DNA of 64,000 nt from Natronococcus sp. CG52 (GTDB taxonomy: Archaea; Halobacteriota; Halobacteria; Halobacteriales; Natrialbaceae), in NCBI RefSeq assembly GCF_023913515.1, contig NZ_CP099391.1, positions 2,294,001 through 2,358,000 of the forward strand, read 5' to 3'. A model generated the notes under the pieces. That model did not search any database, had not been told where the DNA came from, and worked only from the letters and a program-made list of their open reading frames with translations. This document shows positions 54,177-59,553 of the stretch, in pieces. The position numbers and the translations under genes were made by a program. Each line of letters starts with the position of its first letter. The stretch's first letter is position 1.

Positions 54177-56438
54177 TCACGAGCCGGTGAACCGATCCCG
54201 GACGTCGAGCGCGACCTGGGTCCCGTACTGATCGACCAGCGGGCAGAACGCGTCGCCGAGCGACCGCATGCACTGCCCCGACGAGTGGTAGCCGAGTCGG
54301 TCCGCGACGGTCTCCCACTCCCGGGCCTGTAGTACCCGGAGAACGAGCAGCCGCTCCTCCCGATCTGTCAGCTCGATCGGATCCGGCGCCTCGAGGAAGT
54401 AGCGAACGGCGAGTCGGCGGAACGGCCCGGGATCGACGTCGAACAGCCCGGGACCGTACGCGGCGCCGGCGACGACCCGCCACTCGTGATCGGTCAACTC
54501 GAGCGGTGGAGTGGCGTCCCCGTCGACGCTTCCCAACGCTGCGCGGGCCACGTCGGGCTCGAGGTCGTCGAGCGCGTCCGAACAGAGCGCGGCGAACCGT
54601 CGAGCGAACCACTCCGCGTGGCGGTCGTAGAGGTCGCGTCCCGCCTCGCTCGTCGGGGAGAGCAACAGCGCCGAGTACTCCCCGCTGGCGACGTTGCGCG
54701 TCGTCGAGAGGTGAACCGCCGAGTAGCCGTTCTCGCGCCAGAACTTGAGGAGTCCGGGCGTCGCCCCGAACCCGGTGCCGATCCAGTCGACCTCGGAAGC
54801 CAGTTCGTCTCGGATCTCCGCGAGCAGCCGCGAGCCGAGTCCGCGTGATCGAACCGCGTGGTGGGTCGCAATACGAACCACGCGGATCCCGGCGGGTTCG
54901 CTCGCCCGCTCGTCGCGAAGTTGGCTCGTGAGCACGTCCGGGAGCATGTTGCCGCGGATGCGTCCGCCCTCGTACATCATCGCTCGATCGTCCGCCGGGA
55001 GGTTCCCCTCGCGGGCGAGTAACGCGACGCTGACGACGCGTCCCTCGTGGACCAGCGCGCGGGCCTCGAGGTTCGGCGCGTCGAGGAGTCGCGCGAGGTC
55101 GTTCGGCTCGGTGCGGTAGTGGGCGAGGACGAGCAGGCCGAACGCCTCCCGCAGGAGGCGCTCGTCGGCCAGCAGGTCGTCGGGCTCGAGCCGGCGGTAC
55201 TCGACCGATTCGGGCGTCGCGTCCGTCACGAGCGGCTCGACCGGCGGGCGGGCGTCGAGCAGCAGGGCTCGAAAGGCCCAGACCTCGACGGGATCGCCGG
55301 CTGCGTAGCGGATCGGCGCCGTTAGCGTCCGTTCGGTAACGGTGTGGTCGCTCTCGTCGAGACGGTCCCGGAATCGGACGGAGAACCCTCGTCCCGCGCC
55401 CTCGTAGCCGTGGACCGTCGTCGCGAAGGCGACCCGATCGGCCGCGAGCAGCGATTCGAGGACCGCCACCGGGAGTGCAGCGGCTTCGTCGACGATGAGA
55501 ACGTCCGCCGTCTCGAGTCGCTCGACCGCCTCGGTCGGCTCCAGGTAGCGGACGCGCCCGCCGGCCGTCGTCTCGATTCGGCGCGATTCGACGGTCGCGT
55601 CTCGCTCGAGCGTTTCACAGAGTTCGCCGGCGCGGTCGAACACCTCGCGCGCGTTCCGGGAGCCGGGTGCGGTCACAAGGACGTCCTCGCCCTCGGCGGC
55701 GAACGCGCCGGCCGCCAACCCCGCCGCGCTCGACTTGCCCCGTCCGCGGTCGGCCTCGAGCACGACGGCATGCGGGGCGTCGAACAGCGACTCGAACGCG
55801 GCGACGGCGTCTACTTGATCGTCGGTAAGGCAGGCGTCGTAGGCCGCGGTCGGAAAGCGGTGGTCGGACGGCGCCTCGATTGGCGCCTCCGTTCCTCGTT
55901 TCGGCGGGGGATCGGTCAGGCCGTCGTCGACGACGCGCTCGGTCTCGAGGTCGACGATCCCGACCCCGCGGTGTGCTCGAAGCGTTTCGACCAGCCGGCG
56001 CCTGAATCGTCCGGTGACGTCCGACAGCGAGAACGGCGGGACGGCGAGCGACTCGTCGAACGCGCCCCGGCGCTCGGGCCAGGACTCGAGCGATGGCGTC
56101 AGGAGGATCAGGAGCCCGCCGCCGTCGACCGTCCCGACGAGTTTCCCGAGCGCGTTGGGCTGGAGTTGCTCGTGAGCGTCGAGGACGACCACGTCCCGGG
56201 TCGTTCCGAGCAGCTCCCCGGCGTGAGTCTGTGAGAGCTGTTCGCAGCGAAGGCGGTCCTCGGGACCGACGAGCGTCGTCCGGGTGATCGGGACGGCGAG
56301 CCGATCGAGGACCGACTCGAGCGCGTCGTACCCGCGTTCCCGGTCGCCGGCGAGTACCAGCAGCCGTCGCTCGTTCGTCCGCGTCGCTTCCGCGCGGAGC
56401 GACCGTGCGAGTCCGACGACGTCCACGTCCGCGGCCAT
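54177..56438 (-). CDS. tmcA: tRNA(Met) cytidine acetyltransferase TmcA
   Basis: 753 aa from the ATG at 56438 (MAADVDVVGLARSLRAEATRTNERRLLVLAGD). Three parts: N-terminal DUF1726-like domain, an RecD-like helicase/ATPase with Walker A VVLEADRGRGKSSAAGLAAG and Walker B ADVLIVDEAAALP, and a GNAT acetyltransferase domain (VRIATHHAVRSRGLGSRLLAEIRDEL...GLLKFWRENGYSAVHLSTTRN). It makes N4-acetylcytidine at tRNA or rRNA positions using acetyl-CoA and ATP. Complete by length. Convergent with the SDR pseudogene, 5 bp apart. Confidence 0.93.
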   Translation of the reverse strand: MAADVDVVGLARSLRAEATRTNERRLLVLAGDRERGYDALESVLDRLAVPITRTTLVGPEDRLRCEQLSQTHAGELLGTTRDVVVLDAHEQLQPNALGKLVGTVDGGGLLILLTPSLESWPERRGAFDESLAVPPFSLSDVTGRFRRRLVETLRAHRGVGIVDLETERVVDDGLTDPPPKRGTEAPIEAPSDHRFPTAAYDACLTDDQVDAVAAFESLFDAPHAVVLEADRGRGKSSAAGLAAGAFAAEGEDVLVTAPGSRNAREVFDRAGELCETLERDATVESRRIETTAGGRVRYLEPTEAVERLETADVLIVDEAAALPVAVLESLLAADRVAFATTVHGYEGAGRGFSVRFRDRLDESDHTVTERTLTAPIRYAAGDPVEVWAFRALLLDARPPVEPLVTDATPESVEYRRLEPDDLLADERLLREAFGLLVLAHYRTEPNDLARLLDAPNLEARALVHEGRVVSVALLAREGNLPADDRAMMYEGGRIRGNMLPDVLTSQLRDERASEPAGIRVVRIATHHAVRSRGLGSRLLAEIRDELASEVDWIGTGFGATPGLLKFWRENGYSAVHLSTTRNVASGEYSALLLSPTSEAGRDLYDRHAEWFARRFAALCSDALDDLEPDVARAALGSVDGDATPPLELTDHEWRVVAGAAYGPGLFDVDPGPFRRLAVRYFLEAPDPIELTDREERLLVLRVLQAREWETVADRLGYHSSGQCMRSLGDAFCPLVDQYGTQVALDVRDRFTGS

Positions 56439-56509
56439 ATACTCGAGTTGTCGGCTCACGTGTAAGAGGTCACGGTCTGGGCCGTGCTCTGGCGCGTACG
56501 GTGTTCGGG

Positions 56510-56962
56510 TCAGGCTCTGTTCGCATACCGTCCCTCGAGCCGCCGGAGGAGGTGTCCGACGAAGTACGCCGCGCCACCCAGCACGACCGCCCCGGCGAGC
56601 GCGTAGACGGGCCCGAGGGTAATTCCCTCGAGCAGTTCGCCCGGCGGATCGCGCTTGTATCCGAGCAGCCGCGGCGGCGTGTATCGCGTCTCCCACGACC
56701 ATCGGAGGTAGCCGACGAGCGGTGGGAAGACGAACCGCCAGAGGATCGTGAGAAAGACGGCACCGGCTCCCGCGAACAGGCCCGCTCGCGTCCACCCGGC
56801 GTAGAGCGCGATGACCAGCGAGACGTACAGCAACGACGGGGTGAGAACGGCGTCGTACTCGAGCAGAAACGCCGCGGAGGCGAGAGCGGGGACCGAGACG
56901 CCGAGAACCGCGACGCGAGTGCGCGTTCGCGGGTCACCAGTCAGGGCGTTTCGAAGCCGCAT
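56510..56962 (-). CDS. Multi-pass membrane protein of unknown function
   Basis: 150 aa from the ATG at 56962 (MRLRNALTGDPRTRTRVAVLGVSVPALASAAFLLEYDAVL). Four predicted helices, a positively charged loop SWETRYTPPRLLGYKRDPPGELLEG, and a basic C-terminus RRLEGRYANRA. No enzyme motif. It is divergent from the eL8 operon and 71 bp upstream of tmcA on the same strand. Upstream in-frame starts would add an unsupported basic stretch. Confidence 0.65.
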   Translation of the reverse strand: MRLRNALTGDPRTRTRVAVLGVSVPALASAAFLLEYDAVLTPSLLYVSLVIALYAGWTRAGLFAGAGAVFLTILWRFVFPPLVGYLRWSWETRYTPPRLLGYKRDPPGELLEGITLGPVYALAGAVVLGGAAYFVGHLLRRLEGRYANRA

Positions 56963-57085
56963 ATGATGGTTTTTCAACCAAATTCTCATAAGCGTTCGTA
57001 CGGCCGGGAGCGGCAGTGACGCTGCAGATCCAATCCAGAACATCCGGCGTGCGGACTGATCCCACGCGTTCTTGCGTTTGGACAC

Positions 57086-57240
57086 GCTTTTAAGGGGGGC
57101 AACGCTACTCGGTAGTACACCCTACGCGGGGTTGATGATGCTCCTAGCTTCACAGGACTTCCGCCGAGCGTAATTCGGCCCGGGACCCAGCCCGGACGGC
57201 AGGGGAGCGCGAGCCCGCGCGTAGGAGAGGTGAACAACCA
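57086..57240 (+). promoter_or_regulatory. TATA box and structured leader of the eL8 operon
   Basis: GCTTTTAAGG (57086-57095) is a good TATA box, predicting a start near 57118 and a leader of about 120 nt. The leader's 5' end CTACGCGGG (57122-57130) can pair with CCCGC and GTAG (57214-57224), next to the GGAGAGG ribosome binding site (57224-57230), and GCTCC (57140-57144) pairs with GGAGC (57204-57208). Between them lies an asymmetric loop GTTGATGAT opposite GCGAG, which resembles a kink-turn. L7Ae binds kink-turns and regulates itself this way in other archaea; here it is inference. Confidence 0.45.
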
Positions 57241-57603
57241 ATGTCAGTCTACGTAACAACAGACATCCCAGCCGACCTCGCTGAAGACGCCCTCGAGGCG
57301 CTCGAGGTCGCACGAGACACCGGACGCGTAAAGAAAGGAACCAACGAAACGACCAAGGCCATCGAGCGCGGCAACGCCGAACTCGTCTACGTCGCCGAGG
57401 ACGTCTCCCCCGAGGAGATCGTCATGCACCTTCCCGAGCTCGCAGATGAGAAGGGCATCCCCGTCGTCTTCATCGAGACCCAGGACGACGTCGGCCACGC
57501 CGCCGGCCTCGAGGTCGGCTCGGCCGCTGCGGCGATCGTCGACACCGGAGAGGCTTCCGACGATGTCGAAGATATCGCCGACAAGGTCGAGGACCTCGAC
57601 TGA
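57241..57603 (+). CDS. rpl7ae: Ribosomal protein eL8 (L7Ae)
   Basis: 120 aa. [101 protein letters not shown] is the full L7Ae fold with the RNA-binding [12 protein letters not shown] segment. Besides its ribosomal place, the protein binds kink-turns in C/D and H/ACA RNPs and RNase P. The long structured leader suggests self-regulation. First gene of the eL8-eS28-eL24-Ndk operon; eS28 follows after 11 bp. Confidence 0.97.
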
Positions 57604-57614
57604 GGTGACCTGAG

Positions 57615-57839
57615 ATGAGTGCTGAAGAGAACGAAAGCGGCTCCACGCCCGCCGAGGTCATCGAGATCGTCGGTAAGACCGGCATGCACGGCGAGGCCAT
57701 GCAGGTCAAGTGCCGTATCAAAGAGGGCGAAAATCAGGGACGAATCATCACCCGAAACTGCCTCGGGCCGGTCCGCGAGGGGGACGTACTCCAGCTTCGC
57801 GAGACCGCCCGCGAGGCGGACTCCATCGGAGGACAGTAA
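57615..57839 (+). CDS. rps28e: 30S ribosomal protein eS28
   Basis: 74 aa. The core [60 protein letters not shown] is a complete S28e OB-like fold. Small-subunit protein near the E site. A GAGGTGACCTGAG segment with AGG provides a ribosome binding site. eL24 starts 3 bp after the stop. Confidence 0.96.
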
Positions 57840-57842
57840 CCA

Positions 57843-58247
57843 ATGGTCGAGAAGCGAACCTGCGACTACACCGGCGAAGAGATCGAGCCCGGCACGGGCA
57901 TCATGTACGTCCGCAACGACGGTACCATACTCCACTTCGTCGACTCGAAGGCGGAGAAAAACTACAAGCTCGGCCGCGAACCGCGCGACCTCGAGTGGAC
58001 CGAAGCCGGCCGCGCCGGCAAGGGTCCCGCCGACGCCGACACGCCCGCCGACCAGGACGATGTCGTCGAAGCGAGCGAGGACGAGGACCTCCTGACCGAG
58101 GAGGAAGCCGTCGACGAGGACGAAGGTAGCGAACCCGCCGGCGACGAGGACGTCGCCGAGGGTGAGTCCGTCGAGGGCGAAGCCGAGCGCGCCGCCGAGG
58201 GCGAACTCGACGACGTCGCCGGCGGCAAAGAGGACAGCGAGGAATAA
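57843..58247 (+). CDS. rpl24e: 50S ribosomal protein eL24 with acidic tail and lost zinc ligands
   Basis: 134 aa. Residues 1-55 are the L24e domain ([53 protein letters not shown]). Of the four zinc cysteines of other eL24 proteins only one remains (C6); the partners are Thr, Val/Ser-like and Ala/Glu, so zinc cannot bind. The remaining 75 residues are a disordered acidic extension ([45 protein letters not shown]), rare in ribosomal proteins of that size. Overlaps ndk by one base (TAATG). Confidence 0.93.
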
Positions 58248-58711
58248 TGAGCGATCACGAACGCACCTTCGTGATGGTCAAGCCCGACGCGTTCGCGCGC
58301 GGGATCGTCGGCGAAGTTATCTCGCGACTCGAGGGCCGCGGGCTGAAGCTCGTCGGCATCAAAGTCGAGAACATGCCCCGCGAGCGGGCCGAAGAACACT
58401 ACGGCGAGCACGAGGACAAGCCGTTCTACGACGACCTCGTGGACTTCATCACCTCGGGCCCGGTCGTCCCGATGGTCTGGGAAGGCCAGGACGCGACCCA
58501 TCAGGTCCGCCAGATGATCGGCGAGACTGATCCGCTCGAGGCCGAACCGGGTACGATCCGCGGCGACTACGCGCTCGACCTCGGTCGAAACGTCGTTCAC
58601 GCGGCCGACCACGAGGACGAGGGCGCTAACGAGCGAGAGATCTCGATCCACTTCGACGACGACGAGCTGATCGATTACGATCAGCACGACGCCGAGTGGC
58701 TCTACGAGTAA
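58247..58711 (+). CDS. ndk: Nucleoside diphosphate kinase
   Basis: 154 aa. ERTFVMVKPDAFARGIVGEVISRLEGRGLKLVGIKVENMPRERAEEHYGEHEDKPFYDDLVDFITSGPVVPMVWEGQDA, then the active-site region IRGDYALDLGRNVVHAADHEDEGANEREISIHF, with the phosphorylated histidine in NVVHAADH. Transfers gamma-phosphate among NTPs and dNTPs. Last gene of the eL8 operon, coupled by overlap to eL24; the acidic C-terminus is haloarchaeal. Confidence 0.97.
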   Translation: MSDHERTFVMVKPDAFARGIVGEVISRLEGRGLKLVGIKVENMPRERAEEHYGEHEDKPFYDDLVDFITSGPVVPMVWEGQDATHQVRQMIGETDPLEAEPGTIRGDYALDLGRNVVHAADHEDEGANEREISIHFDDDELIDYDQHDAEWLYE

Positions 58712-58971
58712 CGCGACGACGTAGCAAATCCAGCTGTCGATCACGGTTGCGACGGTCGTCGCTGTAACCGACGGTAACCTTTTTCTGTCGTATCACCGTT
58801 CCACTAGGAGTGAAATAGCTGCTATCGGTGACTTCAGGCCCCCTCTTGGGTCACTCTCCTGTGTAGTACAGTTCACATGTATCATTTCAGGTAGACGCAA
58901 CATCTAATGTGTCTGCTGCAGTAGAAGGTACTGGTGGTTTCGAATGGTAACCAACGGTAGGTGGTTCGCGG

Positions 58972-59358
58972 ATGCGTGAACGGGAGCGAGGGTCAAAACC
59001 GATTACTGACAGGACGGCTCCGTCGCTAGACCTCGTTTTCGACCTTCTCTCGAACCGTCAACGGCGATACGTGCTGTATTACCTGTACGAACAACCCGAC
59101 GGCGTTGCGACCGTCGACGAGCTGACAGACCACGTCGTCGCGCTCGAACACCGGACGGCGAGTTCGGAGGGCGAGGATGCGTCGGACGTCCACCGGGAGA
59201 CGATACGGACGGAACTGCAACACGTCCATCTCCCGAAGCTCGCCGACGCCGGGATGGTCGAACACGACCAGCGAAGCGATACCGTCCGATACTGGAGCCA
59301 ACCGTCCCTCGAGGAGTGGCTGGAACACGCCCATCACAAGGAAATTTCGCACTCCTGA
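58972..59358 (+). CDS. DUF7344-like winged-helix regulator
   Basis: 128 aa. The block VFDLLSNRQRRYVLYYLYEQPDGVATVDELTDHVVALEHRT...HRETIRTELQHVHLPKLADAGMVEHDQRSDTVRYW matches DUF7344: winged helix with the LSNxRRRxVLxYL start and the HxxLPKLxxAGMVEHD motif. Distant relative of the protein at 47207-47566. Probable DNA-binding regulator; the adjacent superoxide dismutase gene on the same strand is a possible target but this is not shown. Own upstream region of 260 bp with no other gene. Confidence 0.8.
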   Translation: MRERERGSKPITDRTAPSLDLVFDLLSNRQRRYVLYYLYEQPDGVATVDELTDHVVALEHRTASSEGEDASDVHRETIRTELQHVHLPKLADAGMVEHDQRSDTVRYWSQPSLEEWLEHAHHKEISHS

Positions 59359-59439
59359 CACCGGCACCCGGTAATACCGGGACGGTTGTTGTAACAGGCG
59401 CCGCTGAAAGGTTTAAGACGCGGTTCGTGGTGGAACCAG

Positions 59440-59479
59440 CCACGGGGCGACAGATTAGCCGACTGCAACGTGGCGCCCC
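59440..59479 (+). promoter_or_regulatory. Alternative hairpins in the sod upstream region
   Basis: GTTTAAGA (59411-59418) is a TATA-like element. After it, CCACG (59440-59444) can pair with CGTGG (59469-59473), while GGGGCG (59444-59449) can pair with CGCCCC (59474-59479). The two stems cross and exclude each other, which is a switch-like or pseudoknot arrangement. A second weak TATA-like site is near 59510. Function unknown. Confidence 0.35.
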
Positions 59480-59553
59480 ATGAGGCGTGGTATCATTTCA
59501 CTCCTCAAAGCTTAACATGAGAGCTACCGATACAAACGGTACGAGGTGTACTT

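Follow-up and report, generated by a model that had tools for sequence, protein, structure and literature searches.

The l7ae operon of Natronococcus sp. CG52 raises the question of whether the leader ahead of its first start codon is an RNA through which the encoded protein, L7Ae (eL8), controls its own synthesis. Repression of its own mRNA by L7Ae in some archaea, on which the original prediction for this locus drew, is published (PMC5539422, PMC6298567). According to the available text of Daume et al. 2017 (PMC5539422), L7Ae of Sulfolobus acidocaldarius binds to a kink-turn (k-turn) within the leader of its own mRNA, masking the Shine-Dalgarno (SD) sequence; that k-turn has a 3-nt GAU bulge, flanked by a single G-C pair and, on the opposite side, by a stem of 4 bp. 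The same text reports high conservation of the l7ae leader only in Sulfolobales, assigns k-turn strands in Haloferax volcanii and describes down-regulation in E. coli by several leaders, among them 50 bp of the H. volcanii upstream region. In the Archaeoglobus fulgidus l7ae 5'-UTR, as described in the available part of Huang, Ashraf and Lilley 2019 (PMC6298567), a leader that is largely single-stranded without L7Ae contains a k-turn with tandem G:A pairs, which hides the ribosome binding site upon L7Ae binding.

We analyzed the leader in the window, that is, the whole 64,000-nucleotide stretch of DNA from Natronococcus sp. CG52, and in its relatives (Table 1). The product of the gene that follows the leader is L7Ae, close to solved haloarchaeal eL8 structures. 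This gene opens the operon, and the gene order L7Ae-S28e-L24e-Ndk recurs in 78 of 80 named loci (the best 80 of 351); of the two exceptions, one locus is cut by a contig end (L036), and in the other L24e was not found (L076). The TATA box lies 28-31 nt from the leader start in 160 of 163 leaders, a count that covers 163 of 171 leaders, with three that lack the structured element, four unparsed ones and L069 left out. Because of this spacing, together with a conserved ACA, the l7ae transcript probably begins near 57117. The originally predicted span, 57086-57240, contains the leader and also takes in the TATA box. Upstream of the leader, the minus strand holds a divergent ORF (56510-57085) of at most 191 amino acids, with no match in Pfam or NCBIfam.

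Table 1. Features of the l7ae leader and operon in the window (P1 is the C-helix and P2 the NC-helix of the k-turn; all positions are those of the window)
Feature	Position	Strand	Details and basis
TATA box TTTTAA	57088..57093	+	Read from the sequence; spacing to the leader start
Structured 5' leader of the l7ae operon, ~124 nt	57117..57240	+	Covariance model R1
P1, 5' strand CCTACGCGGGGT	57121..57132	+	U57132 is -1b; alignment and covariation
K-turn, bulged strand	57133..57139	+	Bulge UGAU 57133-57136; G57137 (1b), A57138 (2b), U57139 (3b)
P2, 5' strand	57140..57149	+	Alignment and covariation
Conserved apical CAGGAC	57153..57158	+	Alignment A1, columns 39-44
Variable apical part, two predicted small hairpins	57163..57195	+	Folding and sequence
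P2, 3' strand	57198..57208	+	G57205 bulged
K-turn, non-bulged strand	57209..57212	+	G57209, C57210 (3n), G57211 (2n), A57212 (1n)
P1, 3' strand GCCC-g-CGCGTAGG	57213..57225	+	G57213 is -1n; G57217 bulged
SD-like GAGGTGA	57227..57233	+	7 nt before ATG; complementary to the 16S end read in L175
l7ae (eL8) gene	57241..57603	+	
S28e gene	57615..57839	+	
L24e gene	57843..58247	+	
Nucleoside diphosphate kinase (Ndk) gene	58247..58711	+	

The original prediction had the 5' end of the leader paired with bases next to the ribosome binding site, around an asymmetric GTTGATGAT/GCGAG loop with GA steps. Both features are present in the window: the pairing corresponds to helix P1 (12 pairs and one bulged base), next to GAGGTGA, and comparison of the loop among relatives fixes the UGAU bulge and a U:G closing pair. 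The evidence for the structure of the leader is comparative because the window leader folded alone is of ordinary stability (z -0.79, equalled or surpassed by 42 of 200 shuffles). Alignment A1 consists of 55 haloarchaeal leaders, namely, that of the window and those of 54 other loci, five of which are among the named loci. In A1, 17 of the 22 pairs show two-sided changes and 91.2% of the cells are paired (94.6% in P1 and 87.0% in P2, with two-sided changes in both helices). None of 500 shuffles, which ignore relatedness, scored as high, and slid partners pair in 37-50%, a control that keeps relatedness but tends to favor a structure drawn from the alignment under test. When run on A1 with no structure supplied, RNAalifold recovered 11 of 12 pairs in P1 and 6 of 10 in P2, with double changes in 12 of its 19 predicted pairs; the pairs at columns 20:111 and 21:110, which fall within the core of the k-turn, were rejected as an artefact of a program that has no non-canonical pairs. 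Among 38 further leaders (A2), which were outside the training of covariance model R1 (built from A1) but were aligned by this model and hence lean towards it, two-sided changes occur at 16 of the 22 pairs, with 93.7% of the cells paired. An absence of conserved pairing in relatives was to count against the original prediction; both the pairing and the k-turn core proved to be conserved, with covariation. Judged by this comparison, the l7ae leader is a conserved RNA in which two helices flank a k-turn.

The census of the k-turn core covered 93 leaders (55 from A1 and 38 from A2). In all 93, the 1b.1n step is G.A and the base preceding the GA is U; 2b.2n is A.G in 81 leaders and A.A in the remaining 12, the closing pair is U:G in 88, and 3b.3n is U.C in 56. 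In the window, the corresponding positions are G57137.A57212, A57138.G57211, U57132:G57213 (-1b:-1n) and U57139.C57210. Compared to the 3-nt bulge of a standard k-turn, the bulge comprises 4 nt (YGAU) in 75 of the 93 leaders, including that of the window, and 3 nt (CGU, CAU or UGU) in 18. In the tandem G.A and A.G steps beside the bulge and in the helices on both sides (C and NC), the leader matches a standard k-turn. An alternative register starting from the first GA of GATGATG was rejected, given that only the second GA is retained in the 18 leaders whose loop is short (CGU, CAU or UGU). L7Ae kinked every k-turn analyzed in the available part of PMC6298567, where kinking by ions alone follows sequence rules; when applied to the window, these rules suggest that ions alone would in most cases not suffice to kink a k-turn with U.C at 3b.3n and a U:G closing pair. 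Mimicry of the L7Ae site in 23S was considered and rejected, given that, by eye, the 23S region shows only a general k-turn likeness.

The bulged strand resembles box C (UGAUGA), with CUGA opposite in some leaders (L141 and L089), which speaks for a leader that gives rise to a small RNA of its own, for instance a guide of the C/D or H/ACA type. We regard this reading as highly improbable: the middle part between the strands is free in both length and sequence, so that there is no conserved guide; in A1, there is a single UGAUGA-like box and no second box pair of the kind that a C/D guide would have; the ACA after P1 is not conserved and P1 has one bulge and no pocket, which does not fit an H/ACA guide (A1, by eye); and Rfam gives no match. 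The leader and the box C/D guide k-turn, for which a consensus is quoted in the available text of PMC5539422, are alike in the UGAUGA-like bulged strand and the GA/GA core, and differ in that the leader has neither guide regions nor a second box pair and is tied to one mRNA.

At the apical end, the GGA step (A1 columns 41-43; G in 55 of 55 leaders, G in 52 and A in 53) lies within a CAGGA or CAGGGA motif, and the apical part differs in length among relatives. In Natrialba spp. and Haloterrigena salina (L005, L009, L012, L014, L015, L018 and L026), the apical part is enlarged, giving leaders of ~190-210 nt, and the core is unchanged. A switch between the apical AGGA and the CUCCU of P2, which many leaders allow, was not adopted because, by eye, it is impossible in L144, L145, L151 and L163. 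The unpaired base of P1 (57217 in the window; A1 column 117) is G in 30, A in 20 and C in 5 of the 55 A1 leaders, and its place, three pairs away from the closing pair of the k-turn, is the same in all of them.

In the window, R1 matches 57117-57243 (ATG included) with 85.2 bits, the one significant match in this genome; two further matches, considered as a possible second copy, were not significant (E 1.61 and 2.75). Across the named loci (the best 80 of 351; 502,663 bases), five of which were in the model, there are 80 matches with E <=0.1, one per locus, and the last base of each is the third of the l7ae start codon. The l7ae gene was found in all 292 genomes drawn from the class Halobacteria, and R1 matches 288 of the 292 (E <=0.001), with 38 matching regions in which the match is at the leader by choice of region. 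Of the four genomes without a whole-genome match (G021, G218, G285 and G138), G138 does carry the element (L083, 66.3 bits). Going by these matches, the element occurs, as a rule, once per genome, at the l7ae start codon. Second R1 matches were observed in G083, G084 and G115 (E 1e-4 to 4e-4), at the start of another gene, in L181, whose product reads by eye as an iron-sulfur protein. In G021, G285 and G218 (L137, L138 and L139), which are deep members of the class, the large leader is absent and a compact hairpin is found instead; by eye, this hairpin can be read as one k-turn located at the SD (in L138, CGU-GAU-GA...GA-ACG). In 69 genomes of the phylum outside the class, searched with stricter filters, there was no R1 match at l7ae, which was located in 67 of them; weak matches elsewhere were detected in 5 of the 69 (E 0.019 to 0.59). 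The Rfam search gave no match up to E 1 for positions 56000-59500 of the window, only two tRNAs at the gathering score for the whole window, and only two sub-threshold miRNA matches, within the L064 gene, for eight loci.

Beyond the class, we inspected 40 l7ae upstream regions of the same phylum (L182-L221). In 36 of these, two boxes (mostly, GATGA-NN-GATGA) precede the middle part and GA-NN-GAG follows it, a pattern that was widened after the sequences were viewed and that does not fit L199, L202, L210 and L217; the strict form GATGA-NN-RATGA occurs in 27 of the 40 leaders vs 9 of 8000 single-base shuffles. As far as their sequences go, the 36 leaders are readable as two tandem k-turns around the SD, with U:A as the inner closing pair in 35 and with the other middle step never Watson-Crick (A.G 14, U.G 7, G.U 7, A.A 4, U.U 3 and G.G 1). 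Against this reading, the pair adjoining the inner G.A steps is non-standard in 17 of the 36, and the second GA of the after-strand belongs to the SD and would therefore be present anyway; the plain alternative is a single k-turn with a spare box. If the tandem reading is true, these leaders would represent a natural double L7Ae switch. A designed double k-turn is said to be the subject of one published study.

Returning to the haloarchaeal leader, we consider it likely to be a cis-acting autoregulatory RNA through which L7Ae represses its own operon. In the window, P1 ends 15 nt upstream of the ATG and the SD adjoins P1 without overlap; the distance from the end of P1 to the AUG is 10-17 nt (median 14) in all 55 A1 leaders, and in 28 of these the best SD match (spacing <=13 nt) overlaps P1 by 1-3 bases. 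The SD is held in or beside the k-turn helices, as in an L7Ae autoregulatory leader. Under the proposed mechanism, surplus L7Ae, that is, L7Ae that is not in 50S subunits, guide particles or RNase P particles, would bind and kink the k-turn. The bound k-turn would clamp P1, the 3' strand of which abuts or overlaps the SD, and L7Ae on the leader would add bulk and impede the entry of the 30S subunit, so that translation of l7ae and, by coupling, perhaps also that of S28e, L24e and Ndk would drop. Given that the gene order is kept in 78 of the 80 named loci (the best 80 of 351), we infer that the feedback may also set the levels of S28e, L24e and Ndk, thereby linking the supply of ribosomes and of C/D RNPs.

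P1 is predicted to form without protein, with a median pair probability of 0.98 across 55 leaders (standard energy parameters, not molar KCl); it is weak in some of them (mean pair probability <0.7 in 12 of the 55, and 0.15 in L105), and the median predicted probability that the SD is unpaired is 0.47. The model in which the RNA is unstructured until L7Ae binds, as put forward in the available text of PMC6298567, does not fit this predicted folding. With P1 predicted to be formed in most leaders before any protein binds, the switch in haloarchaea would act by locking a leader that is folded in advance, and so keep the ribosome from opening it, rather than by folding an unstructured RNA. The same prediction counts against the mechanism, in that a clamp by L7Ae may add little to a P1 that is already folded. 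Also against it, the SD of the window is outside P1, P1 is weak in some leaders, the bulge is of 4 nt in 75 of the 93 leaders, and the apical GGA has no role in the proposal. A P1 predicted to be stable alone and an SD that is partly free could also belong to a leader that serves mainly as an mRNA stabilizer or a ribosome-loading structure, with no L7Ae feedback. However, such a leader would have no need for the G.A step and the preceding U that are invariant in all 93 leaders, and we consider it quite unlikely.

Alternatively, the leader could act as the receptor of a ligand other than L7Ae, perhaps the S28e or L24e encoded in this operon, with the k-turn as no more than architecture, as in some riboswitches. 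This would accommodate the operon order retained in 78 of the 80 named loci (the best 80 of 351) and the near-invariance of an apical GGA without a role in the k-turn. Nevertheless, such a receptor seems unlikely to us, given that L7Ae, encoded by the first gene, is a known k-turn binder, and that k-turn-like l7ae hairpins without the apical loop are present in the three deep genomes of the class (by eye) and in 36 of the 40 outside-class leaders. Repression by L7Ae remains our preferred reading. A tentative and rather unlikely extension of it is that the haloarchaeal L7Ae switch is a pre-folded two-input leader, in which the k-turn would read L7Ae and the conserved apical GGA loop would read a second partner, so that two assembly signals would control a single ribosomal operon. 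In this view, the tandem k-turn of leaders outside the class would offer two potential L7Ae sites around the SD strand, separated by two base steps, and haloarchaea would have lost one site and gained the long P1.

The haloarchaeal leader is similar to that of Sulfolobus, as described in the available text of PMC5539422, in having a k-turn beside the SD in the l7ae 5' UTR, with the L7Ae gene downstream, and unlike it in the 12 pairs of P1, the up to 10 pairs of P2, the apical domain and the usually 4-nt bulge. With the A. fulgidus leader, as presented in the available part of PMC6298567, it shares a tandem G.A k-turn at the l7ae leader; in contrast, the haloarchaeal leader is predicted to be folded without protein. 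In all nine Haloferax loci examined, H. volcanii not being among them, the distance from the bulged strand to the AUG downstream is 110-112 nt; therefore, the 50-bp H. volcanii construct, as described in the available text of PMC5539422, may have missed half of the k-turn. In the open-access literature, we found nothing beyond PMC5539422 and PMC6298567 on a structured haloarchaeal l7ae leader or on tandem k-turns in l7ae leaders. The k-turn strands of H. volcanii had already been marked in PMC5539422; what is new here is one structure common to nearly all class genomes examined.

Overall, the haloarchaeal l7ae leader emerges as a class-wide RNA element, backed by covariation and outside Rfam, for a feedback that so far has been shown mainly in other archaea. 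This element is amenable to test in H. volcanii, and it raises the question of how L7Ae would act on a leader that is already folded.
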